From Elusimicrobiota bacterium (GTDB lineage: Bacteria > Elusimicrobiota > Elusimicrobia > Elusimicrobiales > UBA9959): a stretch of DNA of 36,534 nucleotides. A model generated the notes under the pieces. The model did not search any database, was not told where the DNA came from, and worked only from the letters and a program-made list of their open reading frames with translations. The stretch's first letter is position 1. Every line of letters begins with the position of its first letter. The position numbers and the translations under genes were made by a program. The stretch is taken from contig WOVA01000022.1 of NCBI GenBank assembly GCA_009773155.1, positions 1-36,534 on the forward strand, in the 5' to 3' direction. Positions 2,804 through 25,757 of this stretch are shown piece by piece.

Positions 2804-4048
2804 TCAATTCACTTTCCCCTTCACGCCGCATTCAATGGCCTTAAGCAACTCCTTAAGCTCCGGTTCACCCACCCCTATCATAGCGAGCAGTTCCTTGAGC
2901 CTGCTGCGGGAGACCAATTCCTGGCAGAAGGCGTCCACCGCCAGGCAGAAAAAGCGCATATTGAAATCACGCGACCCGGACTTCTTCTCTGTTTCGGAAT
3001 CCGGAGCATCCACTTTAATGAGGCGCCTCAACGCCTTCGCCTCTTCGCTTTTGGACAGCAATTCCCGGCATTCATCTTTGCTGATGACGCCAAGATTCTG
3101 AAGCCGGTACACCGTCGCGTCCCAGCTCACCCCGTAGTGATGCTGCAGATGGACCACATCGTGCAGCCTGATGGAAATGGACGTAGCGGTACGCCGCTGC
3201 TCCGCCTCATGCGCCCCTTTCACGCCGCCTATCGCCAGATATGTTCTGGTGCCGCCGGTCTTGCCGATGCTTTCAAAGAATTCCACAACGCCGGCCTTCG
3301 GCAGCAGGAACGCCGCCGCGAAAGCGTTGGCGCGGACCTCCACCAGGTCCTTGCCCGCCCCCCCGCTGCTGACCAGCAGCGCTCTATCCCGGTCCACAAG
3401 GAGATGGCAATACTCATGCGCCAATGTAAAGGCGTGCCTGAAAGCGTGATGCCTGGGATTAGCCAGGATGGACATGCCCGTCTCTTCGTCGCACATGAAA
3501 ATGCCGGAAATATCGGTATCCATGGCGATGTCCAATATCCTGATGCCCTGGATCTCCAGGAGGCCGGCAATATCCCTGACCGGACGCCCGCCCAGCATCA
3601 ACCGCTGGCGCTCGCTCTCCGCTATTTCCTGCCCGGCCTTTATGGCCTCCCAGACGCTCGCCGGCTCCGGGAACTCGTACTTGACCGGGTGCCTGTATTT
3701 GGCGTCAAGCCCGAGCAGCTTCTCCAACTGGGTATACTCCCTCAGCAGTTTTATGACGGGTTCGAATATGGACCGGTCTACCCTGTTTTGCAGTTCTTCG
3801 GCGACCCTGAACCGGAGCGCCACCTTTTCCGCCTCATCCCCGGCGACCAAAAAGTCTTCCAGCCTTCGCCCGTATAACCCGGCGAGTTTTTCCAATTGCG
3901 TCGTATTTACCGGGCGCTTTCCGCCTTCGATGAGCGTGAGCGCCACCCGCGAGACCCCCAATTCCCTCGCGGCGGCCTCCTGGGTGATCTGCTTGGACTC
4001 CCTGGCGCTCTTGAGGCGCCGTCCCAGTTCTTTTCCCGTCAAAGTCAT
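2804..4048 (-). CDS. XRE-family HTH regulator fused to ImmA/IrrE metallopeptidase
   Basis: Residues 8-65 form a lambda-repressor-like HTH. The central region holds an ImmA/IrrE (COG2856) peptidase with the zinc motif HEYCH at 211-215 and the third ligand Glu in EVRANAFAAAFLLP (Glu237). Proteins of this architecture repress their own operon and are thought to be inactivated or activated by stress-triggered proteolysis. The C-terminal 130 residues are helical and unassigned. The ATG has a GGAGGG site. A canonical promoter with an overlapping perfect palindrome lies 32-69 bp upstream, which suggests autoregulation. It heads the operon with the PIN nuclease and the lipoprotein. At 414 aa it is of usual length. 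Confidence 0.88.
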   Translation of the reverse strand: MTLTGKELGRRLKSARESKQITQEAAARELGVSRVALTLIEGGKRPVNTTQLEKLAGLYGRRLEDFLVAGDEAEKVALRFRVAEELQNRVDRSIFEPVIKLLREYTQLEKLLGLDAKYRHPVKYEFPEPASVWEAIKAGQEIAESERQRLMLGGRPVRDIAGLLEIQGIRILDIAMDTDISGIFMCDEETGMSILANPRHHAFRHAFTLAHEYCHLLVDRDRALLVSSGGAGKDLVEVRANAFAAAFLLPKAGVVEFFESIGKTGGTRTYLAIGGVKGAHEAEQRRTATSISIRLHDVVHLQHHYGVSWDATVYRLQNLGVISKDECRELLSKSEEAKALRRLIKVDAPDSETEKKSGSRDFNMRFFCLAVDAFCQELVSRSRLKELLAMIGVGEPELKELLKAIECGVKGKVN

Positions 4049-4079
4049 TCCAGTCCCTCCATCCTGCGGTCTCTCCTAT

Positions 4080-4117
4080 AGCATAGCAGGCAGATACACT
4101 ATTGTCAATAGTTGACA
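4080..4117 (-). promoter_or_regulatory. Sigma-70 promoter with overlapping operator for the XRE/ImmA operon
   Basis: On the minus strand TTGACA (4108-4103) is separated by exactly 17 bp from TATGCT (4085-4080), upstream of the XRE gene. The -35 box is the right half of a perfect inverted repeat TGTCAA-CTA-TTGACA (4103-4117), a good size for an XRE dimer. Binding there would block RNA polymerase, so autorepression is inferred. Confidence 0.8.
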
Positions 4118-4188
4118 CATTTGTTACATCACCAGCGGAGCGCCATAGCTTTTGATAGGCATCCCGGACATCGCACCCCTTCACATAA

Positions 4189-4222
4189 AGGGTAAAGGAG
4201 GGGTGCGACAACGTAGTGTCGT
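4189..4222 (-). promoter_or_regulatory. Palindrome/-10 promoter module, copy 1 (divergent copy)
   Basis: Palindrome at 4205-4222, 10-bp spacer, then TACCCT (4189-4194) read on the minus strand. The arms are imperfect (outermost bases changed) compared with the other twelve copies. It points to the XRE/ImmA gene with a predicted leader of about 134 bases and lies upstream of that gene's own canonical promoter, so it is the weakest member. Confidence 0.5.
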
Positions 4223-4230
4223 ACCCCTCC
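4197..4230 (-). terminator. Hairpin downstream of the DUF4126 gene
   Basis: A 14-bp stem with one mismatch (GGAGGGGT..GACA / TGTC..ACCCCTCC) and a 6-base loop. On the minus strand it is followed by TTTACCC, not a long U-run. It could stop transcription from the DUF4126/Mrr operon. It coincides with promoter-module copy 1, so it may instead be an extended operator. Confidence 0.4.
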
Positions 4231-4279
4231 AGTAAATTTAATTCAGATTTCAGGCTCCGCCGGGAATAGAGCCCAGGTA

Positions 4280-4645
4280 TTATGGAACTTCCGCAACCGG
4301 CCTGGCCGCCAACTTTCGATAAACTTTCCTGCCGCCGAAGAAAATCCCCAGAAAAACCCCCGCCGCCATTAAAAGCGGCAAGAAGACCGCCAGCACCGCC
4401 ATTACCCCCGAAATCACCAGTTCCGCGACCGAAAGCACCGGATTCGCCATCCCCCCTGTGCCGACAGTAGAGGCCCCCCGGAGAACCGAGGTCATAAATT
4501 TAACCGCACCCGCGGCACCGCCCCCGGCAATAACCGCCAGGGACCAACGGAAGACCGGGTTCATATCAGTAAGCACGGCGGCTGTGACAAAAGCCCCGGC
4601 CAAAATAGCGATGGGCATCGCAATAACATCCAGAAGATTATCCAC
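4280..4645 (-). CDS. DUF4126 family membrane protein, N-terminally truncated
   Basis: Hydrophobic protein with the DUF4126 signatures: PIAILAGAFVTAAVLTD, an IAGGGAAGAVK stretch, a LLRGAST-like segment (VLRGASTVGTGG) and NPVLSVAE, then two C-terminal membrane helices. Family members are usually about 180-200 residues; this is 121 from a GTG at 4645. In frame upstream of that GTG the homology continues as KVLGYLIPAVDNLLD, running into the end of the Mrr gene in another frame, and then ceases, so about 60-70 N-terminal residues are gone. No convincing ribosome binding site precedes the GTG. The function of the family is unknown. Probably a remnant. Confidence 0.6.
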   Translation of the reverse strand: MDNLLDVIAMPIAILAGAFVTAAVLTDMNPVFRWSLAVIAGGGAAGAVKFMTSVLRGASTVGTGGMANPVLSVAELVISGVMAVLAVFLPLLMAAGVFLGIFFGGRKVYRKLAARPVAEVP

Positions 4646-4653
4646 GGCGGGGA

Positions 4654-5502
4654 TCAGGTACCCCAGAACTTTGAACCGGTAGTAGGCCCTCGATGGGCGG
4701 AACGCAGGACCAACTTAACGCCGCAATGCGGGCATACAGGATCCCCGTCCTTAACCAGCCTCTCCTGCGCCACCGGAGCCATGCGCATACCCGGCGGCAT
4801 ATATTTACGATTGCGCTCTTCTTCCGTAAGCGGCGGCGGCTCGGTCGGGATCAATGTCGCCCGGCTTTTAGCTGGAACTGCCGGCTTCTGAGCCGGAGCC
4901 TTAACTTCCGCTATCAATTTAGCAAGCTTCGGCCCATCTATAAGCTCTATCGGTTTATCCCTGACAAAATCGACGGCCGGCTGCGTAAAGTCGCCCGATG
5001 TTATCAGGACCGCGCCGCTCGCCGCGGCGTCCACCATGACGCCGTAAAGCTCCCGCGCGATCTTAACATCGATCTTGTAAGCCTTCCAGTGCTTACACTG
5101 TATCACTAGCTTTTCGCCGCTCTTATTTGCGATCAGATCGATCCCGCCATCCGGTGAGGCCCCACCGGCCTCGATGACAGAATATCCCTTGCGGCGATAG
5201 TACTCGCCGACTAAGAGCTCGAATTCTTTCCAGGTCATCGCCTTGACGCTATCAAACCCCTGGGCAGAATTAAAGAGTTTGCCCTTAATAAGAGCCATAA
5301 TGAACGAAAGCACCCCACCGATGGCAAAAACCAATGCAAAAAGTTTAGCTCCCAGCGAAAAGGCGGGACCGACAGGCAGAACTCCGGCCTTCATGTCCGT
5401 CAGAAAGAATGAGATTATGTAAAGGATTACCGCACCGCCGATACCGAACCACCACGGAAGTCCCGCTATCGACTCAAGCAGATTTTCATTTCTACGCGCC
5501 AT
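4654..5502 (-). CDS. Membrane-anchored Mrr-type restriction endonuclease domain protein, zinc finger cut short
   Basis: Two membrane helices (about residues 17-35 and 50-72) precede an Mrr_cat PD-(D/E)XK domain: WKEFE (about 91-95), GYSVIEAGG, SPDGGIDL with Asp122, and VIQCKHW with Gln135 and Lys137. The domain should cleave DNA, perhaps foreign or modified DNA at the membrane. The C-terminus carries a topoisomerase-type zinc finger half, CPHC (Cys257, Cys260) and LVLR...FWG, but stops at FWGT where relatives have FWGCsxxPxC. The second Cys pair is therefore missing. The start ATG lies one base after the stop of the broken upstream gene. Zinc binding is probably lost; the nuclease residues are intact. 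Confidence 0.82.
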   Translation of the reverse strand: MARRNENLLESIAGLPWWFGIGGAVILYIISFFLTDMKAGVLPVGPAFSLGAKLFALVFAIGGVLSFIMALIKGKLFNSAQGFDSVKAMTWKEFELLVGEYYRRKGYSVIEAGGASPDGGIDLIANKSGEKLVIQCKHWKAYKIDVKIARELYGVMVDAAASGAVLITSGDFTQPAVDFVRDKPIELIDGPKLAKLIAEVKAPAQKPAVPAKSRATLIPTEPPPLTEEERNRKYMPPGMRMAPVAQERLVKDGDPVCPHCGVKLVLRSAHRGPTTGSKFWGT

Positions 5503-5902: not shown

Positions 5903-8548
5903 CTAATAGGCAACCAGCACTTTGGCGGGGCGGCCGTTAAAAACGGGCGTCTGGCGGCGGCCGTGGAGGCGGCGGGCCATGTAGGAGACGTTCTCCGACA
6001 GGTATTCGTCCAGCTCGGCGGCGGTTATGGAGCGGTCGCCGTTCTTGTCGGCCTCGCCCTGCAGTCCCTTCAGGAAGAAATAGGTGAAAAGCGAATGCCT
6101 CTTCTCCGGGTACCAGGAGGAGATCTCGTCGGCCTTGGAGGAAGCGAAGACCTCGATCTTGCCCGAGCCCGGGACGACCGGCTCCACCCGCAGCGGGCTG
6201 GCCCGCGAGATCAGCGCGCCGCCGTCCGACTGGCCGCTGAAGCAGGTGTCCAGCACCACGCTGACGCGCCGGGCCGGCAGCCGGGCCAGGTTGTCGTAGA
6301 AAACCCCCAGCGGATAGCCGCCCAGCTTAACATAGTCGGGGTCGGCGTCCGAAGGGACCAGGTAGGCCTGCCTGCTGCGCACATCGGGCGCGCCGTGGCC
6401 GGTGTAATAGATAAAGACGTCCGATTTGCCTTTCTTGACATAGTCGGCCAGCTGTCCGGCGGGATTCTCGGAAGTGCCGAAAACCTTCTCCAGGTCCGCC
6501 TTGGTCGGGTCCTGCAGCAGGATGATATTTCCCTCGCGGTAACCCAGCGCGCGCACCAGGTATTCCCTGAACAGGCGCGCGTCGTTGAGCGCGTAGGCGA
6601 CGGAAGGGACATCCCGGTTCTTATAATTCTGAACGCCTATCACCACGGCCACGGCGTCGGGATTGCGGCCCCTGGCCGCGGGGATACTCAGCAGTTCCTC
6701 GCCGAAAGAAGGCATCTCCACCGGCTTGCGGTCGCCGGGCTTGCCTTTTATGTTCACCAGCTCCGTGCGCGGATAAGAGCGCTTCAGCTTGAGGTCCAGC
6801 GGCAGCTCGCGGCTGAACCGCGGACGGCTGTCGCTCACCACCAGCTTCACCGGCAGCTCATCGCTCCCCCTGTAATTTTTCTTGACGCTGAACGCCAGCT
6901 TGAGGTCCCGCCAGCCGCCGGGCTTTATATTGCCGCAATTAAAATCCGCCGCGCCCAGGAAAGTCAGGTCCGGCGAGCCGGAGACCGCCCGCACGCTTTC
7001 GCAGCGCGCCTCGCCGGCGCCCTTATTGACCAGCGTGACCGCCAGCTCAACCGATTCCCCCGGCTCTATCACGGTATTGCCGTTGCCGACCGAGAACTTC
7101 TCGGGCCTGTCCGGCTCGAAAGTGTCGTCCACCTCGATCTTCACCAGCCGCAGGTCCGGCGGCTCCAGCCGGCGGGTCTCGATGCGCACATCAAAGGGAT
7201 CCGGCGCGAAATCATTGGCCTCGCTTATACGCATACCGAATATAACCCCGCCGTCGCGCAGGTCCAGCCCGGTCCTTACGGGCACCGAATATTTCAGCTC
7301 CGCGCCGCCGTCCAGGTCGCCCAGGTCGTAGAACTTTTCGACGGCTATATCGGGGCTTTCGCGGCCCCGGCCGGCCTTAAGATACCAGCTCGAGACCGCC
7401 AGCTTCAGGCCGAAGGCCTTGCCGGCTCCCCGGGCGTTAGAGACGGTGAAAAAGAGATCCCCCTCCTCGTCGGCCTCCAGTATTTTATTGCCGGAATCGT
7501 CACGGAAGCCGACGCCGCTTACCGTCAGCAGGGGCGGCTTGGAGGGCATGATGAAAATATTCCGCGCGTCAGACTCGCCGCGGGAGGTTTTAACGCGAAA
7601 GCTGGCCGGGCCGGGCGCGATATCCCCCGGCAGCCGCACCGAGAGGCTCTCGTCGGCGAGCCTGGTCACCTCGCCGGGGACGCCGCTGAAGAGGACCGAC
7701 GTCACCGCCTCCCGGCTCCTGAAGCCGGAGCCGGATATTTCCAGTGTACTGCCCGGCGCCGGCTTTTCGGGGCCGAAAACGTAGATCCTGGGCCGCGCGT
7801 TCTCCCGCCTCTCATGGGCCGCCTCCCTCGCTTCCCTTACGGCGGGGAACCAGCCATCCCTGTCGCCTCTGCCGCCGAACCAGCCGCCGTAATACAAATC
7901 CACGCCGAGAAACCATGCATTATGCTTGTAGGCCGGGAATGAGATTTCGGCGCTTTCCACTCCCTTGGCCCTTATCGTCATATATCCCAGCTTGAGGTCC
8001 ATTATCTTGCCGAACGAATAGCCCAGGCCGAATTCATGGGAGGAAACGCCGCCTATGCTTAATTCAGAGGTGTAGTTATAGTCCGTCTGTTCATCGCGTA
8101 TGATACCCCAGGGACAGAGCGAGGCGTACAGGTAAAGAGCCCCTTGCGGGCTCTCGCCGCTTAGGCCCTGGGGCTTCCCGTTGTAGATGGGGCCTCCCAG
8201 GTAGGGGAGATAATAAAAGTCGAGGGAGAAAATCCGCCAGATATCCCAGCTGGAATCTGTTTTAGGGGGAGAAAAGGCCCACCAGGTGGAATATCCCCGC
8301 ACTGTATAGGGCTCCTTTGCATGGATGTACTCGATAGAAGTCCCCAGCCCGATGCGCGTCCGGTCGTCAAAGGCGGCAAAGGCGGCCCGAAGTTTATAGC
8401 CGTCGGGGTAACCCGCGGAAGCGGACGCCCCTAGATTGTAATGATGCCCGGTCCATTCCGCGCAAGCCCGGCCTTCAAAAGCGGCGACCGCGGAGAGCAG
8501 AACTCCCGCCGTCACAGCCCCGGTCATAAGCGCGCTTTTAGTCAGCAT
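5903..8548 (-). CDS. Secreted caspase-family (peptidase C14) protein with TIG and CARDB-like domains
   Basis: Residues 1-30 form a signal peptide. About 30-230 is rich in Tyr/Trp/Gly strands and could be a beta-sandwich or small barrel. About 250-340 is an IPT/TIG-like Ig fold (SGSGFRSREAVTSVLFSG). About 345-610 holds two CARDB-like repeats, each with an 'E-x-GE/D' acidic turn. The caspase-like domain (about 630-880) has the His-Cys dyad: His718 in YYTGHGAP and Cys769 in LDTCFSGQ. An EF-hand/dockerin-like loop DKNGDRSITAAEL follows, suggesting Ca binding. It should be an extracytoplasmic Cys peptidase. It is the last gene of an operon with two lipoproteins. The ATG has GGAGG at a long spacing of 12. 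Confidence 0.88.
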   Translation of the reverse strand: MLTKSALMTGAVTAGVLLSAVAAFEGRACAEWTGHHYNLGASASAGYPDGYKLRAAFAAFDDRTRIGLGTSIEYIHAKEPYTVRGYSTWWAFSPPKTDSSWDIWRIFSLDFYYLPYLGGPIYNGKPQGLSGESPQGALYLYASLCPWGIIRDEQTDYNYTSELSIGGVSSHEFGLGYSFGKIMDLKLGYMTIRAKGVESAEISFPAYKHNAWFLGVDLYYGGWFGGRGDRDGWFPAVREAREAAHERRENARPRIYVFGPEKPAPGSTLEISGSGFRSREAVTSVLFSGVPGEVTRLADESLSVRLPGDIAPGPASFRVKTSRGESDARNIFIMPSKPPLLTVSGVGFRDDSGNKILEADEEGDLFFTVSNARGAGKAFGLKLAVSSWYLKAGRGRESPDIAVEKFYDLGDLDGGAELKYSVPVRTGLDLRDGGVIFGMRISEANDFAPDPFDVRIETRRLEPPDLRLVKIEVDDTFEPDRPEKFSVGNGNTVIEPGESVELAVTLVNKGAGEARCESVRAVSGSPDLTFLGAADFNCGNIKPGGWRDLKLAFSVKKNYRGSDELPVKLVVSDSRPRFSRELPLDLKLKRSYPRTELVNIKGKPGDRKPVEMPSFGEELLSIPAARGRNPDAVAVVIGVQNYKNRDVPSVAYALNDARLFREYLVRALGYREGNIILLQDPTKADLEKVFGTSENPAGQLADYVKKGKSDVFIYYTGHGAPDVRSRQAYLVPSDADPDYVKLGGYPLGVFYDNLARLPARRVSVVLDTCFSGQSDGGALISRASPLRVEPVVPGSGKIEVFASSKADEISSWYPEKRHSLFTYFFLKGLQGEADKNGDRSITAAELDEYLSENVSYMARRLHGRRQTPVFNGRPAKVLVAY

Positions 8549-8602
8549 AGATCACCGCTGCCTCCGGCGGCCCCGGGTCGTCCCGGGGCCGCGCGCCCGC
8601 CG

Positions 8603-9238
8603 CTACTGCCCCTTCACCAGCTCCGCTATCCTGGCGCGCACGGACGATTCGCGCTTGCGCGCCTCGTCCAGGTCCTTCTGCAGGTCCTCCTGCACGCGCT
8701 TCACCTGCCCCTCGATGAAGTATTTCCGCAGTGTACCCTCGTCCTTAAGCCCCTGCATCGCCCATTTCTCGGCCGCGGCGCCGCTGTAGAGTATGCGCAC
8801 CCAGTAGCGGCCGGTCTTGTCGTCGACCAGTTCCTGCATCTGCCAGGGGCCGCGCAGCTGCGAGTCCACGATGCTTTTCTGCATCGTCTTCATCTCCTCT
8901 ATCGAGGAAGCCTCTTTGTAGTCGGACTTCCTGTACTCGCTCCAGTCGGCCATAGTGCGCTTCCAGACCGCCTCCACTACGGACTCCACCTTGCGCGCCA
9001 GGTCCGCCTGGGCCGAAGTGATGGCCGCCTCGCGCATCAGCGCGAAGTTGGAGCGCTTGTCCGACGTCCCTATCCCCGTGACGATCAGCCCGCCGGCCTC
9101 CTCGGCCAGCGCCTTGAAAGGCGTCGCCTCCGAGTAGCGCCCCTGCACCTCGTCGCGCACCACCTCGCTCCTGCTCCCTCCGCAGGCCGCAAGGGCCCCC
9201 AGCATCGCCGCCGCCGCAACTGCCATGATGGTTCTCAT
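8603..9238 (-). CDS. LPP20-like lipoprotein (211 aa)
   Basis: Signal peptide with lipobox LAAC (Cys19). The body has a GIGTS...REAAITSAQADLARKVESVVE segment, the recurring pattern of the LPP20/FlgP-like family (small alpha/beta domain where an Ala-rich helix follows a GxG turn). The C-terminal 50 residues are a charged coiled-coil-like helix. Members are outer-membrane or periplasmic lipoproteins of unclear function. The ATG is preceded by GGGAGG. It lies 9 bp after the DUF4384 lipoprotein gene and 54 bp before the caspase gene, so the three probably form one envelope complex. Confidence 0.75.
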   Translation of the reverse strand: MRTIMAVAAAAMLGALAACGGSRSEVVRDEVQGRYSEATPFKALAEEAGGLIVTGIGTSDKRSNFALMREAAITSAQADLARKVESVVEAVWKRTMADWSEYRKSDYKEASSIEEMKTMQKSIVDSQLRGPWQMQELVDDKTGRYWVRILYSGAAAEKWAMQGLKDEGTLRKYFIEGQVKRVQEDLQKDLDEARKRESSVRARIAELVKGQ

Positions 9239-9247
9239 AGTTCCTCC

Positions 9248-10207
9248 CTATTTCTTTCCTTTGATAGAATAAAACAGCACCAGCGCCGTCCAATCGGAGC
9301 GCTCAAAGAGCGCCAGCCTCTTCACAAGGTCCTTCAGGCCGCCCGCATCACCGCCGAACCCCTCCGGATCTGCCAGCGGGCGCCCCCTGGTGGCTATCAC
9401 GTGAAGTATTTCGGCCGACTCCGGCCGCCCCGCCGGCAGCGAGGCCGTCAGCCGGAAGTAGCGGTCCCCGGGGATCCCCAGAACCTCCCCCGCCCTCACG
9501 AAATTCTCCGGCGCGTGGCGGTTAGGGAACACCAGGCTCACCCCGCCGTCCTCGTCACAGTTGAGCAGCGTTATATAGGCGTCCCGGCTCAGGCGCAGCC
9601 GCAGCGCCACCTCGTCGCCGTCGAAATAGGCCGGCTTGTCCAGGTCCGCGCTCAGCCTGAAATCCGGGTCGGGCGGGCCTTTGAACCGCGCCTCGCCGCG
9701 TATTCTCACCGTGCAGCGGTGCGCGCCGCCGTCCAGAACGCAGACCGGCGGGCCGGCGCGCTCATAGGAAACCAGCGAATCGGACCAGACGTTTATATAC
9801 TTGCCGATGAACTGGTAACTGCCGCCGCCCGATTCCTGCATTATGTTCTGAAAGCCCGAATAGACGTTCACCCCGGCCTCCCGCGCCGCCCTGGCCAGCG
9901 CGTCCTCCTCCGCGCGCTTCTCGGCGTCGATGAGGCGCTCATACCGGGAGGCCCGCCCCTCGCCCTCTGCCTCGAACTTCAGCGAGCCCGCGCCGCCGGC
10001 GAAAGTCTTTACGGGCGACGGGACAGCCCCGGCGGCCGCCGCGCGATCGTCCGACAATTCCCGCTGCACGCCCTCGATGCGCGACTTTATCCCGTCCAGC
10101 TCCTCCACCGACACATGCCGGCGCCGCCCGCCCGCGCAGGCGGAGAGCGCAACCGCAAGCGCTGCCAGCACAACGGCCTTGAACTTGTATCGCCAGAGAC
10201 GGTCCAC
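9248..10207 (-). CDS. DUF4384-domain lipoprotein
   Basis: I choose the GTG at 10207 because GAGGGAGG lies 5 bases upstream and a lipoprotein signal peptide follows directly (lipobox LSAC, Cys24). Residues about 25-70 are a charged linker, about 70-190 an LPP20-like helical/beta region (ALARAAREAGVNVYSG), and about 195-300 a DUF4384 domain (ADLDKPAYFDGDEVALRLR, AYITLLNCDEDG, LVFPN). DUF4384 is known mostly attached to caspase-like or kinase-like signalling proteins, which matches the caspase gene two positions on. It is driven by promoter-module copy 2, with a predicted leader of 21 bases. Confidence 0.82.
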   Translation of the reverse strand: MDRLWRYKFKAVVLAALAVALSACAGGRRRHVSVEELDGIKSRIEGVQRELSDDRAAAAGAVPSPVKTFAGGAGSLKFEAEGEGRASRYERLIDAEKRAEEDALARAAREAGVNVYSGFQNIMQESGGGSYQFIGKYINVWSDSLVSYERAGPPVCVLDGGAHRCTVRIRGEARFKGPPDPDFRLSADLDKPAYFDGDEVALRLRLSRDAYITLLNCDEDGGVSLVFPNRHAPENFVRAGEVLGIPGDRYFRLTASLPAGRPESAEILHVIATRGRPLADPEGFGGDAGGLKDLVKRLALFERSDWTALVLFYSIKGKK

Positions 10208-13167: not shown

Positions 13168-14319
13168 TCATTGTCCGGTTTTCCTCTGAAGATCATACAA
13201 AGCTGAGCCGACAGCGTTGTGTCGGGGCGCCGGCGAAATTTTTTCCCAGCGGCTCTTGAACCACAGGGCGCACATCAGGTAGAGGAACTTGAAGTAGCGA
13301 TCCTCCCAGAGGTCCGGCAGAGATTCCGCCTTCCTGTACTGTGAACGGATAAAAGAGACGCTGGCGTCCAGTTTTTGATCAAAACCTTCAAAATCCCTGG
13401 CTTCGGCCTCGCCGTAGCCGCCGACATAGAAAAAATCCTTCCAGCCGGACTCCAGGTCGCCGGCTATGTTTTTCGCCAGCTCTTTCATCTGGGCGGGGTC
13501 CTCCAGCGCGAAAAGCGAGATAAGGTCCACATCCCTGGGGCGGCCGGCATAATCAGCGGCGTAAGAGGCCAGAGGACCGGCAAAAACGTCAGCCAGCCGG
13601 CGGGAATCCTCGTCGCCTAAAAAAACGGAAGAGCGCAGCAGAACCGAATTATAAATAAGCGCCAGCTGGCCGGCGTTAAGGCCGGGGCAGTCCGGAACGC
13701 CGAAAACAAAATCCTTGAATTCGGTCGCGGCGAAGTTATACTGATAACCGCCCTCGATGAAAGCCTCGCGCAGGTCTTCGCCGGGCCGGCCGGGCAGGGT
13801 CAGGAATTCTTTCCACAGCCGGAACTCCCCGCCGGACGGGAATTTCAGCTCATGCCTTCTAAGCGCGTTCAGGAGCGTCGCCCCGCGCTGGCCGCCGAAC
13901 GGGACAATTTCGCCGGAGGCCAGTTTTTTACGCAGAGAGCGGTATCCCGCAAGGCCCACATACCCGTCCATCGGAATATCGGGAACACGGCAGGCCAGGA
14001 AAGCTTCTACAGCGGGGGCATCAGCTACTGAGGTCATGAACTCTTTGATGGCGCTCTCCGGCGGGAGCGTCAATTGCGCTTCGCCGGGCAGGGCGCCGAG
14101 CGTACGCTCTACCCAGACACTGTACTCCCCCTCGAAATGCTGAGGCGCAAAGCAGAGCTCGAATAAAGGCTCCAGGGCGCATATAAAAAAAGCCAGCCTC
14201 TCATAGGAATAACCTTCGGGCGGACGGAAACGCCTGTTCTTCAGGTAAAACCTGGCGTTATTGACCGTGCGCCCGTGGAGTTTGTCCCAGGGTATGCCGT
14301 TGATAATTATCGCGCTCAT
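13168..14319 (-). CDS. Unknown protein, fifth gene of the MoxR/VWA-AddAB-like operon (383 aa)
   Basis: I do not recognise a family. The protein is soluble, mixed alpha/beta, rich in aromatic residues, with no signal peptide, membrane helix or obvious nucleotide-binding loop. Segments WDKLHGRTVNNARFYLKNRR (residues 11-30) and the Trp/Tyr-rich YFKFLYLMCALWFKSRW near residues 343-359 stand out. The ATG overlaps the stop of the AddA-like gene (ATGA), so it is part of the same complex or pathway. Its last codons contain promoter-module copy 4, which encodes the tail residues PRHNAVGSA; the native C-terminus may therefore have been extended or rewritten by that module. Confidence 0.7.
   Translation of the reverse strand: MSAIIINGIPWDKLHGRTVNNARFYLKNRRFRPPEGYSYERLAFFICALEPLFELCFAPQHFEGEYSVWVERTLGALPGEAQLTLPPESAIKEFMTSVADAPAVEAFLACRVPDIPMDGYVGLAGYRSLRKKLASGEIVPFGGQRGATLLNALRRHELKFPSGGEFRLWKEFLTLPGRPGEDLREAFIEGGYQYNFAATEFKDFVFGVPDCPGLNAGQLALIYNSVLLRSSVFLGDEDSRRLADVFAGPLASYAADYAGRPRDVDLISLFALEDPAQMKELAKNIAGDLESGWKDFFYVGGYGEAEARDFEGFDQKLDASVSFIRSQYRKAESLPDLWEDRYFKFLYLMCALWFKSRWEKISPAPRHNAVGSALYDLQRKTGQ
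13192..13225 (-). promoter_or_regulatory. Palindrome/-10 promoter module, copy 4 (inside upstream coding end)
   Basis: Perfect arms at 13208-13225, inner CAACGC, 10-bp spacer, TATGAT at 13192-13197. The whole module lies within the last 20 codons of the 383-residue gene and points to the HEAT gene. Predicted +1 near 13185. Confidence 0.72.
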
Positions 14320-17300
14320 CCGGCCTTTATACCTATCACCGCGCCTTCTATGGCGCGCGCCCCTTTAAGACGGCCCAGCAGGAGGATATACCGCTCTTTC
14401 TGTTTTTCACCCAGAGCGGTTTGTCCCTCCGACGAACCGAAGATAGTCTTATATTCAAGGACCGTGACCTTGGACTGATCCACCAGCACGCCGTCCACGA
14501 TACCGTTCAACAGGCGTTTCCCGTCGGCGCTTTTGCCCCAGACCCGCAGTTCCGGAAGGTTTTTGGCGCCGTAACTGAAGAGCGGCTGAAGCAGCGCCTT
14601 GTTCTCCGGTCTCAGCAGGATATCAGCGGCCAGCCGTCCGGCCTCGTCCAGGGAGACCGCAGGGGAATTGCGCACGACCGCGTCGTAAGCGTCCGGCCCG
14701 GGGGCCCGGAGCATCAATTCCGCTATTATTTGATGCACCCTGACACCCACATACATATTCATCGAGCCGCCGCCGACCAGCCGGGCCGCGCCGGCGCTTA
14801 TCTGGGGCGCGGCCGTCAGTTCGCCGAGATCTTTTATGTCCGTGCGCACACCCACAAGGCGGAAGGCGCCGGGCAGTTCAAGCCCCTCTCTTTCCGACAG
14901 CGAACGCAGTTCCGGCCGGCCCCCGATCCAAGGTCCGGTTTTAAGCAATTTCATTGAAATCTGTCCGGGCTTGCAAAGTCCTTTGATCATCCCCAACAAT
15001 CTAGGGGGCTCGGACTTTGATTTTGCACCGGAGGCGGTCAAGAAGCCCGGAGGCGTCCCGTTGTCGAGTATCATCAGATGTTTTTTTGTGCGCGTAAGAG
15101 CGACATAAAAGAGATTGGCTTTCTCCGCCTTAACCCGCTTGTAAGTACTGTTATAGAGCCGGCCCAGCCCCGGGTAGCGGCGGCCGTTTTCCATGCTTGC
15201 AGCAGGCAAACCGCCCAGATAAGGGAAATAGTCGATTTCTATTTCCTGCTTAGGTCCGGCCACCTTTCTAAACTCCGCGTGAAAAAGATGGGCGAATTCC
15301 TCCGGCGACTCTTTGCCGTCGGGGGCCGCTTTAAGCGTCTTATTGGAGTCCAGTATCAGTATGACCTTATCGTAAGTCAGTCCCTTTGAGGAATGGATGG
15401 TCACGGCTTCCGCGAAACCGAGCTTGTCCATGTCCACATCATAGGAGAGGCAGGACTCATAAGGGATCTTGGAGGCGCCCAGCGACTTCAGGACATCATC
15501 TCCCCCCTCGTCCCTGACACCGGAGATCTCGTGAAGGTAGAGGCCGGCCAGCGCGTGATTGAGCGAGCGCGCCGTATTCTCCGGGGAGAGCAGCGACTCC
15601 CTCCTGAAAAATACAGGCCACAGACCGGGAGCCGCCCCGTCATCTTCTCCAGAGCCGGGGCCCTTCAGCAATGAATATATCTTCTCGGCGGTCGAGGTCT
15701 CGCCGGCGCCGTAATAAAGCGACTGTATCTCTCCGTATACGGCCGCCGCCGCTTTTACAAAGGCTTCAGGCGACGATACCGCCGCGTCATTTATGTGCCG
15801 CGGCCAGAGCCCCTTCGCCAGTTCAAGACCTTTGCGGCTCAGCAGCAGGGCCGCGGCCGCCTTATGCCTGTCGGCGGAGGCGAAGCACCAGGTCAGGGTT
15901 TTAAGCAGATAATAGTCCGGGTCTATGTCCCCTATCTCGTCCTCGGTAAATTCGCTGTCCGACTTTCTGTCCTCGTCCACCTGCTCAAAAGGTTCGGACA
16001 TCCTGTACTGCAGTTCGTCCTTGAGCATGAGCGAAAGCTTGGAGTTACGGAAGGCGCTCCTTGAGCGGAAGATGACACCCGTACGCCCCGGCGTGCGGTT
16101 GATGAAATCCTTGACGGCGTCTTTATCCGCGTAAATATCATTTCGCTTGCTGATTATGCCGTATTCGACCTCCAACGGCGCCGTAGACGGCATCCAGTTC
16201 TTTCCGGGAGCGTCCGGGGGGCGTGAGAGCCGGTCGTCCTTCGCCTTATAATCGAAGAAGCTCACCGTCTCTGCCTCGCCCTCGTCGCCCGCAAGCAGGA
16301 AATTGTAATCCTCAGCGACTTTTTCGATGAGCCCGTTTATAAAGTCCAGCGTATTGGGATTCTTTATACGGTAGGAATCCAGGAGAGAGGTCCTTTTCCC
16401 CTGTTTTTCCGCCTCTTCGCACATCTTCAGGAACTCCTCGGGGAAGGCGTTGCGCCAGCGGTAAACGGACTGCTTGGCGTCCCCGACCAGAGTAGTCTTT
16501 ACAACGCACTTGTCGGCCAGGAAATAGCCTATCAGGGCGTTCATAAGGATATCGCAATCCTGGGCCTCGTCTATAAAAAGCCGCTTGAATCCGAACCCTT
16601 CGTCCTCAAGTCGCCGCAGGAAAGCGGACATGCCTTCCTCTTTCTGCGCCTTCATATCGCGGAGCAGCTTGACCACCAGGAAGACAAGCGAGTCGAAGTC
16701 GAAGATCCCGCGGCTGTACATATACGGGATATAAGTATGCTTGCCGATATGCGAAATGATGTTTTCAAGCACCGGGCGGGTCGCTCGCAGCAGCGGCACC
16801 GCCTTCTCAAGCGCGGCCGCCAGTTTTTCAGGCTCCCTGGACTTATTGGCCAGCCTGGCCAGTATCAGTTCCCTGGCCAGGTCTTCAATATCGCCCGGGA
16901 CCGCGGCCGCGGCGGCGGCAGCGCCGGCCGGGTCCAGCACTTCACCCAGGAAGAAAACCTTCTGGCCGTGCTTTATAATGAAATCCCGCAGACTTTTCCG
17001 GTCGCCGAGCAGATACAGGACCTTCAGCAGATCATAGGCGGGGTCGCCCTCTTTAAGGTTGAGCGTCAGGGCCAGGCTGCCCAGGTCCCAGTGCGAACGG
17101 AAGAAATCGCTGACGCAATTCTCCCAGACGCTGGAATTCTCATCGGTCGGGAACCGCGCGTCAGCGGGCAGGCCCAGTTCATAACGGAAGATCCGGGCCA
17201 GCTCAAAACAGAAGGAATGTACCGTATAAACCCGGGCTTCCGAACCGCCTATCGCTTCGCCGAAAGTCGAGACCTCCTTCGGCGCCGTCTCCTTGTAGAG

Positions 17301-17462
17301 CCGGGCTTTGATCTCTTCGGCCGCGGCGTTGGAGAAACTCAGAAAAACGGTATCCTTAAGGCAGGAAAAATCCCCGCTGCCGCCGGCCGGCTCAAGGCCG
17401 AGCGATACTATCTGATGCGTCTTGCCGGTACCGGCGGAAGCCTGCAGTATACACTTAAGCAT
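14316..17462 (-). CDS. AddA/RecB-like UvrD helicase with C-terminal PD-(D/E)XK nuclease
   Basis: A superfamily 1A helicase of 1048 residues. Walker A ASAGTGKT is at 8-15, DEAQD (motif II) at 298-302, GDAKQSVYRWR (motif III) near 327, VTIHSSKGLTYDKV (motif V) near 687 and FYVALTRTKKHL (motif VI) near 785. The RecB-family nuclease at the end has His910 (GVRVHQ), Asp990 (GIVDGV), Glu1003-x-Lys1005 (EYK) and a KQKERY segment near 1020. Together these predict ATP-driven 3'-5' DNA unwinding with DNA cutting, as in AddAB/RecBCD end processing. It is shorter than classical AddA (about 1200 aa). The ATG overlaps the AddB-like stop by 8 bases and uses GGAGG inside it. Confidence 0.9.
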   Translation of the reverse strand: MLKCILQASAGTGKTHQIVSLGLEPAGGSGDFSCLKDTVFLSFSNAAAEEIKARLYKETAPKEVSTFGEAIGGSEARVYTVHSFCFELARIFRYELGLPADARFPTDENSSVWENCVSDFFRSHWDLGSLALTLNLKEGDPAYDLLKVLYLLGDRKSLRDFIIKHGQKVFFLGEVLDPAGAAAAAAAVPGDIEDLARELILARLANKSREPEKLAAALEKAVPLLRATRPVLENIISHIGKHTYIPYMYSRGIFDFDSLVFLVVKLLRDMKAQKEEGMSAFLRRLEDEGFGFKRLFIDEAQDCDILMNALIGYFLADKCVVKTTLVGDAKQSVYRWRNAFPEEFLKMCEEAEKQGKRTSLLDSYRIKNPNTLDFINGLIEKVAEDYNFLLAGDEGEAETVSFFDYKAKDDRLSRPPDAPGKNWMPSTAPLEVEYGIISKRNDIYADKDAVKDFINRTPGRTGVIFRSRSAFRNSKLSLMLKDELQYRMSEPFEQVDEDRKSDSEFTEDEIGDIDPDYYLLKTLTWCFASADRHKAAAALLLSRKGLELAKGLWPRHINDAAVSSPEAFVKAAAAVYGEIQSLYYGAGETSTAEKIYSLLKGPGSGEDDGAAPGLWPVFFRRESLLSPENTARSLNHALAGLYLHEISGVRDEGGDDVLKSLGASKIPYESCLSYDVDMDKLGFAEAVTIHSSKGLTYDKVILILDSNKTLKAAPDGKESPEEFAHLFHAEFRKVAGPKQEIEIDYFPYLGGLPAASMENGRRYPGLGRLYNSTYKRVKAEKANLFYVALTRTKKHLMILDNGTPPGFLTASGAKSKSEPPRLLGMIKGLCKPGQISMKLLKTGPWIGGRPELRSLSEREGLELPGAFRLVGVRTDIKDLGELTAAPQISAGAARLVGGGSMNMYVGVRVHQIIAELMLRAPGPDAYDAVVRNSPAVSLDEAGRLAADILLRPENKALLQPLFSYGAKNLPELRVWGKSADGKRLLNGIVDGVLVDQSKVTVLEYKTIFGSSEGQTALGEKQKERYILLLGRLKGARAIEGAVIGIKAG

Positions 17463-20400
17463 TGCCGCCTCCTTTAAGACCGCCCAGGCTTATGAACCGG
17501 CACAAGTGGGTATTACAGTAAGAACAGTCGGGATTATACAGGGGCTCCGGATCGCCGGCCTCTTTCCGCGCCGCCGGGGAATAGTCCCAGTCAAGAGCGC
17601 CTAATTCTCCATTCGCCAGGAAACTGATAAAAGTCCCGGACGCCTTTTTCAATTCGACGGCCATGCCGCCGATATTTCCGCTGTTTTCGATGAAAAGATC
17701 TTTTTCTTCAACAGGAGCGTCCTTTTTAGTTTTCTTCTTCTTAGTGACGGCGCCTGGATCTATATTAGAAACACCGTCGAGCATTATATTGGCGCCGCTT
17801 ATACTGCCCAGCTTGCATTCCGGTAGTCCGTACCGCGCCGGTTCACTTGAGAGCATCAGGGCGTAAGCCGCCAATTGCAGCGTCTCGCCTGATCCCTGAC
17901 TGAAAACGGCCCCTCTTCCCGACCAGGACAGTTTAGGGATTTTTTTACCCGTCTTATAATCCCAGACATGGAGCATTGAGCCGGCCTTGCCGCTGATATC
18001 CAGCCGGTCCAGCCTGCCGCTCAATATGATCTTCACGCTTTCAGCTCCGTCGCCCGGGCCCAGCGGTATGGAGCCCAGATCCATCTCGCATTTAAGCTCG
18101 TTTTTAACGCTTTTCAGCCCGGGAAGCTTCGCCTGCCTCGCTGCCTCGTTCTCGGCGAAAACCTGGAATACCCGCCGGCTCTCGGCCTTGAACTCTTCCA
18201 GCGGCAGGTCCTGGAAAGTTTCCGGGTCCCGGCCCGAAGCCGCAAGAAGGCCGTCGAAGGCCTTGCAGACCGCGGCAAAGATCTTCTTTTTGTCGCCGGA
18301 ATAAAAATCCGGATCGGCCCCCGCCTTCTCGTAAACGGAATGCCAGAAGGAGCCCTTGGTCAGCGGGATCTGCGACTCGTGGTCTTTTTCCTCCCGTATA
18401 CCGGCCGCCGTCATAAAGATATTCACTATAAACTTCCTCGGGCAGTTTATAAAACCCGCGAAATCCCGTACTCCTATCTTTATTTCCAGCGGCAGGCCGT
18501 CTTTTCCCATGGGCGGGGGGTCATAATCCCTGTACTTCTTCTCCCTGAGCCGCAGAAGGGTCAGCAACGACAATTCCCCGGCCTTGGCCTGAAGGTCCGG
18601 CGGAGGCGCCGCGGGGGCGCTTTCAGCAGAGGCGGGCGCGGCTGCCGCCGGGCCGGCCGAGACGGAATAGGCCGCGTCGGGCGTCCTGGCCCCCTCGCCT
18701 TCGAACATCAGCTCATGTGCGGCGTAAAGCGAAGGCATAGCCCCGCCCTTATTATCGTCCAGACCGTAGAATTTCTTGACGGCGCGCACCAGGTTGGACA
18801 TACCGGCCATATCGCCGCCGATATTGTTGTAGCCGTAGGTAAGTGTGACGGACAAGCCGCCGCTTCGGCCGGCGGCAGCCAGCGCCTCGAACTTGCGGTA
18901 TATCTCCGCGCGCAGGCGCTCGGGATAAGTCACGGGCCTGCCGGCGGCGTCCGTAGCGGTAAGGCCTATGGCCGCGGCCAGTTTCTCCGGCACGGGCATT
19001 TTCTTGAGTTTGTCCGCCTCGCCGGTAAGGCCGCAGGCTATTATGTGGGCAGCCGAAGTGTTAAGCATGCGCTCAGGCGCCAGCACGGGCACTTTATAGG
19101 TCTCCCGTCTCTCTTCGCCAAGGGGATAATATTCGGTCTCGGCCATAAGGCTGAGCAGCGAAGAAGCCATAAGGGCAGGGTCCCGGTCCTCCTTCCGGCA
19201 GGCCTTCAGTGCCCTGTCGGCCCGCAGCGCCAGCCGCCCCATCGTCTTAACAAGTCCGGTCTCGCGGCACTCTTTCATCTCAAGTGAGACTGCCAGAAGG
19301 TCGGAGAAACCGCTGTCCCCGCCCAAATCGGGCAGCGCGGCCAGATTTTTCAGCTTCTTCCGCTCTTCCTCCGTCATAACTCCCGTGACTTCAGGATTTT
19401 CAAGGACTTTCCCTATCCAATGGACAGGCGACGGATTATCACGGTTTACGCTGGCCTTGTAGCCGGCCTCGAGTATAAGCTGGCGCACGGTGCGCCGGTC
19501 CCTGGAGCCGGGGATGATGATTTCCTGGTTCAGCCTGCCAGCCGAAAGCCTGAAAGCCGATACCGGCGAACTGAAAAGCTCCAGGTAATCCTCCGCCCTG
19601 GGCTCGAGGCCCAGGCTTATGCGCACCGCCGAGGCGTAAACCCGGAAGATACGCGAACCGCCGGCCGGTTCCGGCGCGGCCGCCTGCAGGCCGTAGCGGG
19701 TAAAGACCAGCGGCAGCACCGAAGCGGTCTCGCGCGAGAAACAGGCCACGGAGATCTCCCCCTCGGCCGCCGTCTTTTCGGAGAGCAGTTTCTTTATCTT
19801 CCAGCCGACATATTCCGCCTCGTCCAGACTGGTGATAAAGCCTTTAAGGTCCAGCCCGCCTTTGACCTCCGGCCTGAGGTCAGCGGAAGAAGTGAAGACC
19901 ACCGTATAACCGGCCGCCTTCAGCTTATCGGCCAGCGTCTGGAACAGCGGCTCCATGTCGGCCGCGTCCTCTACGGCTATGACGCGGGTCCCGTTGAACT
20001 CATCCGGTGAAACTTTAAGGGTCTCGGGCCGCTCCAAGGCCGACAGGAGCTCCTTATACGCCTCCAGAGGGCTGAAGAAGCAGGCCTCCTTGCGCTCGGC
20101 CGCGAAGGCGGCCACACGCTCATTGTAGAGGTCCAGCGCGGCGAAGATCTTTTTATAAATAAAATCGTCGAACCCTTCTTTCTTGCGCGCCTCGTCCAGC
20201 GCGGCCAGCTTTTCCTCTTCCGTAGCCAGGGCGATGAATTTCTTGAAGTCGGAAGCCAGGTTGCGAATCTTATGCTTCTCCTCGGGATAAGACCCGGGAT
20301 CAGAATAAGCCCCTATCTCGCTCAAGCCCCAGAGTATCTCGTAGAGCAGAAAGTCCAGGCCTTCGTCCGTATAAAGCGCCAGGTTCTCGCGCGGATAGTT

Positions 20401-20643
20401 GCCGTAGAGCAGCTCCCCCGCGAGATAGAAGAAGCCGGTCTTGTAGGTCTGCACATCCGGGGGCAGTATGGATTCTTTGCCCGAAGCGGCGGCGGCAGTT
20501 TCCCTGGCAAGGCAGAGCTCGGCCTGGGCGCGCCTGCCCTGGCTGTTCACCAGGTAAAGTACGCCGGAATAATCGTTCTGCAGGCTCGCCGGCGTGCCGG
20601 GAGCTTTTTTAGCCAGGTCATCGAACAGTTTTATATATTCCAT
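17455..20643 (-). CDS. AddB-like protein: inactive helicase fold, PD-(D/E)XK nuclease and Fe-S cysteines
   Basis: 1062 residues. No Walker A is seen near the N-terminus, so the helicase-like half is probably structural. A Pro/Ala-rich linker lies near 663-685. The C-terminal third is an AddB-type nuclease: Cys734 (INCPRKF), His768 (SFWHSVY), Asp879 (GRLDRLD), Asp895-x-Lys897 (WDYK), Gln923 (LQLAAY), and a final C-x2-C-x4-C group (Cys1040, 1043, 1048). In AddB one early and three late cysteines hold a 4Fe-4S cluster, and the same layout is present here. An insertion rich in Lys (near 968-975) precedes the last cysteines. It should pair with the AddA-like protein; the start is one base after the MoxR stop. 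Confidence 0.87.
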   Translation of the reverse strand: MEYIKLFDDLAKKAPGTPASLQNDYSGVLYLVNSQGRRAQAELCLARETAAAASGKESILPPDVQTYKTGFFYLAGELLYGNYPRENLALYTDEGLDFLLYEILWGLSEIGAYSDPGSYPEEKHKIRNLASDFKKFIALATEEEKLAALDEARKKEGFDDFIYKKIFAALDLYNERVAAFAAERKEACFFSPLEAYKELLSALERPETLKVSPDEFNGTRVIAVEDAADMEPLFQTLADKLKAAGYTVVFTSSADLRPEVKGGLDLKGFITSLDEAEYVGWKIKKLLSEKTAAEGEISVACFSRETASVLPLVFTRYGLQAAAPEPAGGSRIFRVYASAVRISLGLEPRAEDYLELFSSPVSAFRLSAGRLNQEIIIPGSRDRRTVRQLILEAGYKASVNRDNPSPVHWIGKVLENPEVTGVMTEEERKKLKNLAALPDLGGDSGFSDLLAVSLEMKECRETGLVKTMGRLALRADRALKACRKEDRDPALMASSLLSLMAETEYYPLGEERRETYKVPVLAPERMLNTSAAHIIACGLTGEADKLKKMPVPEKLAAAIGLTATDAAGRPVTYPERLRAEIYRKFEALAAAGRSGGLSVTLTYGYNNIGGDMAGMSNLVRAVKKFYGLDDNKGGAMPSLYAAHELMFEGEGARTPDAAYSVSAGPAAAAPASAESAPAAPPPDLQAKAGELSLLTLLRLREKKYRDYDPPPMGKDGLPLEIKIGVRDFAGFINCPRKFIVNIFMTAAGIREEKDHESQIPLTKGSFWHSVYEKAGADPDFYSGDKKKIFAAVCKAFDGLLAASGRDPETFQDLPLEEFKAESRRVFQVFAENEAARQAKLPGLKSVKNELKCEMDLGSIPLGPGDGAESVKIILSGRLDRLDISGKAGSMLHVWDYKTGKKIPKLSWSGRGAVFSQGSGETLQLAAYALMLSSEPARYGLPECKLGSISGANIMLDGVSNIDPGAVTKKKKTKKDAPVEEKDLFIENSGNIGGMAVELKKASGTFISFLANGELGALDWDYSPAARKEAGDPEPLYNPDCSYCNTHLCRFISLGGLKGGGNA

Positions 20644-20644
20644 A

Positions 20645-21769
20645 TCATCCCGCCGTTATCTGCTTAATAATTTCCGCCGCCTCTGTCTGCCCCGCTGCCA
20701 GCAGGGCCGCGGCCAGCCTGTCCAGCCGCTTGCCCTGCAGTCCGCTCAGATAAGCGGCCGGCAGCCTGAGAGCCGAAACTATGGCCGCCAGATTCTCCTG
20801 ATTGAGCTGATAGCCCTTCTGCAGGCCGTTCTCCACCCGCAGCAGGCCGGCGGGCACCTCCGGCGCGTCGGCGGGGCTGGGATCGTCCGCTATGCGCTTT
20901 ATCACGCTCAGCGCCTGATAGAAAGCGTCCTCAGCGGTCAGTGAATCGCCGGTATAGTAATGAAAGAATTCCACGCCGCGCCTGGCCCCGATAGTGCCCT
21001 TGGCCAGGGTCTCCACCATGCGCCGCTTCTCTTTCTTGTCCACGCCGGCGAGCTTCTCCAGCGTATAAAGCATATCGGAAAGGCGCTCCCAGCCGCGCGG
21101 CGTGGGCGCCTGCTTCTCGCCGTTGCGGAAAGCGTTAAAATCCACCAGCTTCTCTTCCGAGTCCATAAAAGATATGACCTTGGGGTGCAGTTTCTTCCCC
21201 CTCGCCCAGTCCAGCCACTGCTTGAGGTCGGTGACCAGCCGCACCTGCACCATGCGGGTCTTAACCGCCATAGAAAGCTCCTCCACCTGCGTGCCGTCCT
21301 CTTCAGGACCCAGGTTGCCGGCTGCCAGTATAATTGTCCGCGACCCCAGGTCGGCCGCGTCCGAAAAGGTCTCGCTGTCGGCCTTTTTCTCCAGGATGAC
21401 GTCCAGCGCCGCGTTTAGAACCTGCGGCATGGCCGTATTGAGCTCGTCGAAGAAGATGACCAGCCGCGAGCGCGTCGTCTTCTTGAAAAGCGAGATGGGC
21501 AGGAACTCCGTGTATTTCTGGTCGGCCCCCTGTTTGGGGAGACCGGACCAGTCGGTGGTGTCCATGCGCGAGAGATGCTTGACCCGCACCTCGTAATTGC
21601 GCCGCGGGTCCTCGGCGAACTCCTTTAGTATGGTGGTCTTCCCCACGCCGGGAGGGCCGTAGACCATCAGCGCCGGCGGATTGTCCATCGCCTCAAAAAG
21701 ACAGAGCAGCCGCTTGAGATCCTCGGGCGTAACCTCGGGAAGATGATCGTTAAACCTGTCAGGGCTCAT
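20645..21769 (-). CDS. MoxR-family AAA+ ATPase
   Basis: 374 residues with Walker A YGPPGVGKTT at 37-46, Walker B VIFFDEL at 104-110 and the MoxR-like sensor region (ILAAGNLGPEEDG, then MAVKTRMVQVRL). MoxR ATPases act as chaperones that remodel or load partners and are nearly always paired with a VWA protein, here encoded directly upstream with a 4-base ATGA overlap. The C-terminal 150 residues are helical. It is followed one base later by the AddB-like gene. The AAA+ domain may load or regulate the helicase-nuclease; that is inferred from the operon. All core ATPase residues are present. Confidence 0.9.
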   Translation of the reverse strand: MSPDRFNDHLPEVTPEDLKRLLCLFEAMDNPPALMVYGPPGVGKTTILKEFAEDPRRNYEVRVKHLSRMDTTDWSGLPKQGADQKYTEFLPISLFKKTTRSRLVIFFDELNTAMPQVLNAALDVILEKKADSETFSDAADLGSRTIILAAGNLGPEEDGTQVEELSMAVKTRMVQVRLVTDLKQWLDWARGKKLHPKVISFMDSEEKLVDFNAFRNGEKQAPTPRGWERLSDMLYTLEKLAGVDKKEKRRMVETLAKGTIGARRGVEFFHYYTGDSLTAEDAFYQALSVIKRIADDPSPADAPEVPAGLLRVENGLQKGYQLNQENLAAIVSALRLPAAYLSGLQGKRLDRLAAALLAAGQTEAAEIIKQITAG

Positions 21770-23247: not shown

Positions 23248-23285
23248 GCCAATCCCCCCGAAAACCCCTATAACCCGTCCTGTAT

Positions 23286-23319
23286 ATCTTAAAAACCCGG
23301 GCCGACAGCGTTGTGTCGG
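23286..23319 (-). promoter_or_regulatory. Palindrome/-10 promoter module, copy 5
   Basis: Perfect arms at 23302-23319, inner CAACGC, 10-bp spacer, TAAGAT at 23286-23291. It points to the five-gene VWA-MoxR-AddB-AddA operon. Predicted +1 near 23279, 32 bases before the GTG. Confidence 0.78.
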
Positions 23320-23381
23320 TCAAAAATCGCCAAAGAGGAAAACCGATCTACTATCAGAAAATACGGCGCCAAAATCCCCGT

Positions 23382-24953: not shown

Positions 24954-24960
24954 AAGATCA

Positions 24961-25650: not shown

Positions 25651-25757
25651 ACCCGACTCCTCCTCTTTTTCCGATATCGGCACTGAAAAAGCTTTTATGG
25701 CCCGGAAATAGCCTTTTAGTTTTTCCGTATCCTTTTCGCTTACTTCCAAAAGGGCGT

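Follow-up and report, generated by a model that had tools for sequence, protein, structure and literature searches.

In most discussions, bacterial caspase homologues figure as proteases of cell death or stress in the cytoplasm. In the consulted sections of three papers, the caspase and CHAT conflict systems linked to diversity-generating retroelements (DGRs) are mostly predicted to be cytosolic and are often linked to an NTPase and found in multicellular bacteria (PMC7159879, PMC10907252, PMC7517822). One DGR target in the consulted part of PMC10907252 is predicted to be secreted. In the consulted sections of PMC7159879, PMC10907252, PMC7517822, and PMC6426788, DUF4384 forms the C-terminal domain of one set of pseudo-orthocaspases from Alphaproteobacteria, which contain a trypsin-like domain as well; it also occurs with kinases. 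Here, I analysed a caspase locus of an Elusimicrobiota bacterium (assembly GCA_009773155.1, contig WOVA01000022.1). The analysed stretch of 36,534 nucleotides, hereafter the window, is the entire contig and comes from a 2.76-Mb genome with one peptidase C14 match. Three co-directional genes on the minus strand, spanning 10207-5903, encode a DUF4384 lipoprotein, a small LPP20-like lipoprotein, and a caspase protein that is probably exported. I put the probability at roughly one half that they form an extracytoplasmic, envelope-tethered caspase-type protease unit, possibly regulated by calcium, and that this unit belongs to a widespread recognition module. In the open-access literature, no paper was found that joins DGRs with DUF4384 or with peptidase C14; a description of the exported module may exist outside it.

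The caspase protein

The gene of the caspase protein (5903-8548, minus strand, as are all window coordinates in this and the following two sections) encodes 881 residues and is supported by its open reading frame (ORF), Pfam matches, and a structure model. The C14 caspase domain occupies residues 633-872 (5933-6652) and matches PF00656 with an E-value of 8.6e-13 (48.9 bits against a cut-off of 21.4). The predicted domain superposes on plant metacaspase 4 with a Z score of 22.7 and an rmsd of 2.3 over 212 residues, and by this comparison the model has the caspase-hemoglobinase fold. This structural comparison (VIA) spans essentially the caspase domain only. The catalytic residues His718 (6395-6397) and Cys769 (6242-6244) lie where the original prediction had placed an intact dyad, and both are invariant in the 38 aligned sequences, including that of the window. 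Asp656 is found in 37 of the 38 sequences and Asp767 in all of them. The equivalent aspartates of metacaspases belong to the basic S1 pocket. Thus, the invariant dyad and the two conserved aspartates suggest that the protease cleaves after Arg or Lys. The closest named relative, from an Elusimicrobia metagenome-assembled genome (MAG), is 49% identical along the protein.

The protein begins with a hydrophobic helix in the predicted model (residues 4-29), and both partner proteins have a lipobox. By a simple hydrophobicity and lipobox rule, export of the three proteins is likely, as the original prediction had it. The helix is followed by an unassigned domain, a putative outer-membrane barrel (residues 31-235; 7844-8458), which has a low-confidence model and a marginal strand pattern. 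The TIG and CARDB-like modules that had been read from the sequence fared differently. The TIG domain (residues 253-322; 7583-7792) is recognizable, with PF01833 just under its cut-off (E 4e-4; 20.7 bits against 20.9). Then come two Ig-like or CARDB-like domains (residues 338-595; 6764-7537) with a confident beta model. Pfam CARDB does not match the window protein, but it is above the cut-off in an ortholog (L024), and residues 411-575 of the window protein give a partial match to NCBIfam TIGR03900 (E 1e-12, below its cut-off). The list of whole-protein Foldseek hits was headed by integrins, which were taken as generic Ig or beta matches.

Linkage of the caspase with DUF4384

Is the association of the three genes found elsewhere? 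Scanning species-representative genomes yielded 374 caspase relatives; from these, the 80 best loci were retained. Their sources include Elusimicrobia, Deltaproteobacteria (Syntrophaceae and others), Nitrospirae, Cloacimonadota, WOR-3, Bacteroidota, and Calditrichaeota, among further groups; some assemblies contribute more than one locus (e.g., L046 and L082, or L048 and L052), and the contigs are often short. In 74 of the 80 loci the dyad motif was recognized, and the caspase ORFs of L054 and L084 stop early. Elsewhere, a frequent form has about 565 residues and consists of a signal peptide, an Ig/CARDB-like part, and the caspase. In 39 of the 80 loci, the caspase gene has a DUF4384 gene no more than 7 kb away, and the two share a strand in each case (39/39). 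The chance expectation is about 0.7, as estimated from 85 DUF4384 matches in about 158 Mb, the summed sizes of the 40 genomes behind 42 of the loci. Thus, the conserved linkage on which the original prediction depended is present. On the other hand, its premise that DUF4384 is commonly fused to caspases does not apply here. DUF4384 is encoded separately in all 39 loci, and since a model of the DUF4384 protein matched none of the caspase ORFs in the 80 loci, a separate gene is, as far as these sequences indicate, the usual arrangement in this caspase group.

The two families also co-occur across the phylum. Among 247 genomes, 43 have C14, 40 have DUF4384, and 35 have both (Fisher p 2e-29); when kinship was reduced, by collapsing to genera alone, the numbers became 22, 21, and 17 of 76 genera (p 3e-9). 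At least 20 of the 40 genomes with DUF4384 have a C14 match within 12 kb, on the same strand in 18 of those 20. In the 61 genomes nearest to that of the window, the full-length caspase query had matches in 12 and the DUF4384 protein in 11; 10 genomes were hit by both. Some caspases of the group have other N-terminal parts: one has two DUF6273 domains (L029:9331-12426), and another has WD40 repeats and adjoins a DUF4384 gene (L085:8312-10876).

An EF-hand-type loop lies in residues 834-845 of the window protein (6014-6049), between two predicted helices. It reads D834-x-N836-x-D838-x-S840-x-T842-x-x-E845 and has the canonical 1,3,5,7,9,12 spacing. A strict pattern is kept within the last 95 residues of 65 of the 80 relatives, where shuffled sequences would give 0.285, and Pfam EF-hand_1 matches at the loop in one Elusimicrobial relative (E 5e-4, below the cut-off). 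The loop that the original prediction had noticed is thus, by its sequence pattern, a conserved calcium-type feature of the caspase group, with putative calcium binding.

Lectins and retroelements in related loci

A second neighbour family is the FGE-sulfatase family (SUMF1/C-type-lectin fold; Pfam confirmed on two members), found in 34 of the 80 loci. DUF4384 and FGE occur together in 22 loci, and either one in 52. A reverse transcriptase (RT) is present in 10 loci (RVT_1 above the cut-off in both of the two tested), and an HRDC-domain neighbour in five (one member tested). In eight of the 10 RT loci, pairs of a template repeat and a variable repeat were found, 92-149 bases in length with 13-23 mismatches, all of which are at template adenines. 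The variable copy ends the FGE gene at its 3′ end, beside an exported caspase and a DUF4384 gene (L042, L043, L046, L048, L052, L054, L068, and L082). Neither the window nor any of the 70 loci that lack RT gave such a pair in the same test. From their sequence, the eight loci carry DGRs next to a caspase with predicted export. The loci represent six assemblies (L046 and L082 share one, L048 and L052 another), and the DGR loci among the relatives belong to Deltaproteobacteria, Nitrospirae, and a Methylococcales MAG. By the simple rule, each of the eight FGE targets carries an export signal or a lipobox. In three Elusimicrobial genomes (G005, G016, and G030), an FGE domain lies in the reading frame of the caspase itself. 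An FGE lectin was considered as the sensor of the window locus, and none was found. Within a wider group of exported caspases with DUF4384, the window locus is thus a member without lectin or DGR. With no lectin nearby, the sensor of the window version would be either the N-terminal/TIG portion of its caspase protein or one of its lipoproteins.

The N-terminal domain

Residues 31-235 of the caspase protein are rich in aromatic residues, and their homologues were found only in two of the 247 genomes (G008 and G073). The barrel-like traits are of marginal significance. In the distant relative G073 (L122:6527-8821), the same N-terminal domain stands before TIG and Ig domains, and the protein ends in a CsgG/LpoB-like domain, not a caspase. 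Because of the marginal barrel traits and this different ending, the N-terminal domain is treated as a putative envelope platform that may carry different outputs. It is not PorV; this identity was rejected, with an hhalign probability of 0.2% and no PorV match.

A PorV/PorQ-family domain does precede the caspase in four genomes of the window's own family (G002, G020, G035, and G036). The fusions score 81-94 bits against a cut-off of 90: L021:11411-14467 and L032:9478-12549 are above it, L023:8843-12157 is at it, and L022:8767-11946 is below it. Proteins with a FlgD_ig or type IX secretion system (T9SS) tail are encoded close to all four. These fusions and neighbours, together with 10 FlgD_ig matches in the genome of the window, would fit a maturation protease like PorU with PorV, in which a barrel-attached clan CD peptidase, as a sortase analogue, trims or anchors secreted proteins with FlgD_ig or T9SS-type tails. 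For the window locus this is unlikely, even if it is the strongest of the alternatives: there is no PorV barrel in the window, no FlgD_ig gene is adjacent, and most of the caspase relatives have no barrel. As to a complete T9SS, SprA_N was above the cut-off in none of the 61 genomes, although no control genome matched either. The PorV/PorQ family itself is strongly expanded in this Elusimicrobial family and is found in all 61 genomes, with 5-34 matches each and 16 in that of the window. Many of the matches lie in frames of 500-640 residues, which suggests fusions.

Where would a caspase attached to such a platform be located? When a domain follows an outer-membrane barrel at the C-terminal side, as it does in OmpA, it normally lies in the periplasm. 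For this reason, a periplasmic tethered protease is favoured over a surface protease. The original prediction of a surface or periplasmic complex, rather than a cytoplasmic effector, therefore agrees with the likely export, the intact dyad, and the linkage as regards the envelope, while its surface alternative is doubtful.

The two lipoproteins and the gene neighbourhood

A re-check of the ORFs reproduced the predicted extent of the locus, 5903-10207. Genes were called mechanically as the longest ORF starting with ATG, GTG, or TTG. The first gene (9248-10207, minus strand) encodes the DUF4384 lipoprotein of 319 residues. Its open frame extends to 10246; the GTG at 10207 is favoured as the start codon because a purine-rich GGGAGG lies a few bases 5′ of it and because the resulting protein has the lipobox LSAC. 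An LPP20/FlgT-like region is followed by the Ig-like DUF4384 domain, which is supported by PF14326 (E 4e-16; 59.2 bits against a cut-off of 27) and a structure model. The Ig part gave only middling structural matches (best Z 9.3). The family profile resembles weakly the putative lipoprotein 9hmf_C (E 7e-4, profile positions 4-112).

Nine bases downstream, the second gene (8603-9238, minus strand) encodes the small lipoprotein of 211 residues with the lipobox LAAC. No Pfam family was found in it, PF02169 (LPP20) did not match up to an E-value of 0.1, and a search of solved structures with its alignment gave nothing at an E-value below 0.1. Its orthologs in L024 and L031 are 58-68% identical. 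A syntenic homologue (L022:6131-6538) is above the LPP20 cut-off, and the group of that LPP20 member aligns weakly with the group of the small lipoprotein (hhalign probability 85%). Membership in LPP20 was thus rejected, and the label LPP20-like of the original prediction is kept for the weak profile similarity. Close relatives of the small lipoprotein are found in three of the 61 genomes. As for the predicted triplet of DUF4384, LPP20-like, and C14 genes, the DUF4384-C14 pair is conserved, but the exact triplet with a small lipoprotein of the window type is rarer, with two of the 61 genomes (G000 and G008); G005 and G016 have a comparable triplet, whose LPP20-like lipoprotein is divergent. 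Just upstream of the DUF4384 gene, three relatives have a small ORF that is transcribed divergently (L021:3315-3677, L022:4675-5034, and L031:1155-1502), which from its sequence looks like an XRE-type regulator.

The gap between the small lipoprotein gene and the caspase gene is 54 bases. It holds a GC-rich hairpin with an 11-pair stem and no T run, 5′ of the caspase gene (8565-8595, minus strand), whose stability does not exceed that expected from composition (z -1.68 against shuffles). A promoter and terminator scan gave no clear excess over shuffled sequence.

Just downstream of the locus, 2804-5502 encodes an XRE and ImmA/IrrE-like protein (RmrA-like in PADLOC), a DUF4126 membrane protein, and an Mrr-type nuclease with N-terminal hydrophobic segments. 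On the minus strand, 13168-25833 encodes a UvrD-type helicase, a PD-(D/E)XK protein, an AAA ATPase, a DUF2201 VWA-like protein, and a DEAD-box helicase, possibly a repair or defence cluster. An 849-residue protein at 27591-30140 matches LemA, GIDE-like, and Sel1.

Proposed mechanism

In the proposed tethered protease unit, the caspase would be exported and probably held at the outer membrane by its putative barrel. The TIG and two Ig-like domains would carry the caspase at the periplasmic face, and the two lipoproteins, whose genes are probably co-transcribed with it, would be its envelope partners or regulators, perhaps in a complex. Elsewhere, the module would comprise an exported caspase and a DUF4384 protein, often with an exported FGE/C-type-lectin protein. 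Binding of a ligand by the recognition part, together with Ca2+ at the EF-hand loop, would switch on the protease. The lectin would be the recognition part, a role that would fall in the Elusimicrobial form of the window to the N-terminal/TIG region or to the lipoproteins. The active protease would then cut envelope proteins, probably after Arg or Lys. A sensor-effector unit is proposed because the pairing with DUF4384 is conserved and the pairing with lectins, hypermutated in some lineages, is repeated. In this respect, the original prediction was partly right and too narrow, as the relatives have FGE lectin partners, retroelements, and PorV fusions.

Several observations weigh against this proposal. 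The window has neither an FGE lectin nor a retroelement, according to a repeat scan and Pfam scans of its 29 ORFs, and the only FGE match in its genome is weak and on another contig. The N-terminal domain was modelled without confidence, its barrel signal is marginal, and PorV does not match it. Among the matches listed, 20 of the 40 DUF4384 genomes have no C14 within 12 kb. Where at least 5 kb flanks the caspase on both sides (30 loci), DUF4384 is missing from 15 loci, and 11 have neither DUF4384 nor FGE.

More tentatively, the whole group may be an adaptive-recognition protease system. Exported, calcium-gated caspases would be coupled via DUF4384 envelope proteins to exported C-type lectins that are sometimes hypermutated by retroelements, and the Elusimicrobial branch would replace or supplement the lectin with a caspase on outer-membrane barrels, either of the PorV type or made by the N-terminal domain of the window protein. 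This broader idea seems somewhat less probable than the tethered unit alone.

Could the protease instead be a death or toxin-like effector of the envelope, harming the envelope of its own cell or of a neighbour upon infection or contact, in an abortive manner but outside the cytoplasm? The caspase fold and the retroelement-diversified lectins recall conflict systems in the consulted parts of PMC7159879 and PMC10907252, and the distribution is patchy, with C14 in 43 of the 247 genomes. Nevertheless, PADLOC gave only a generic caspase match in the window, no NTPase switch adjoins the caspase gene, and the model of EACC1-associated caspases, NF047832, reached 74.7 bits, far below its cut-off of 140; such an effector is improbable. 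An ordinary secreted peptidase for nutrition or remodelling, with lipoprotein genes co-transcribed by happenstance, would suit the canonical soluble forms of 565 residues in many phyla and the lack of an identified sensor in the window, but it is hardly more credible given the strong cross-phylum linkage with DUF4384 and FGE.

If the tethered unit is real, an exported branch of caspases with an envelope partner would give DUF4384 a context, retroelement-diversified lectins would gain an output enzyme, and recognition-triggered proteolysis outside the bacterial cytoplasm would become testable.

Comparison with known systems

The lipoproteins resemble LPP20, FlgP, and FlgT in the weak LPP20/FlgT-type similarity of the DUF4384 family and in the LPP20 domain of the syntenic small lipoprotein. 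In contrast to those proteins, they are seen in no flagellar context and are joined to DUF4384. The T9SS sortase PorU with PorV likewise combines a clan CD cysteine peptidase with a PorV-family barrel, as the four fused relatives do. However, the relatives have C14 rather than C25 peptidases, in fused form, with no SprA above the cut-off, and the window copy has no PorV match.

The DGR-linked caspase and CHAT conflict systems, as described in the consulted sections of PMC7159879, PMC10907252, and PMC7517822, share with the relatives of the window protein a caspase-type protease and a retroelement-diversified C-type lectin. Unlike most of them, the caspase, the lectin, and the DUF4384 protein all appear to be exported here, and the window copy has no DGR. 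Finally, the predicted fold, the His/Cys dyad, and the conserved S1-type aspartates are those of the C14 orthocaspases, metacaspases, and paracaspases. The window protein differs from these in its probable export, its Ig stalk and putative barrel, its pairing with a DUF4384 lipoprotein, and the EF-hand loop in the C-terminal half of the caspase domain.

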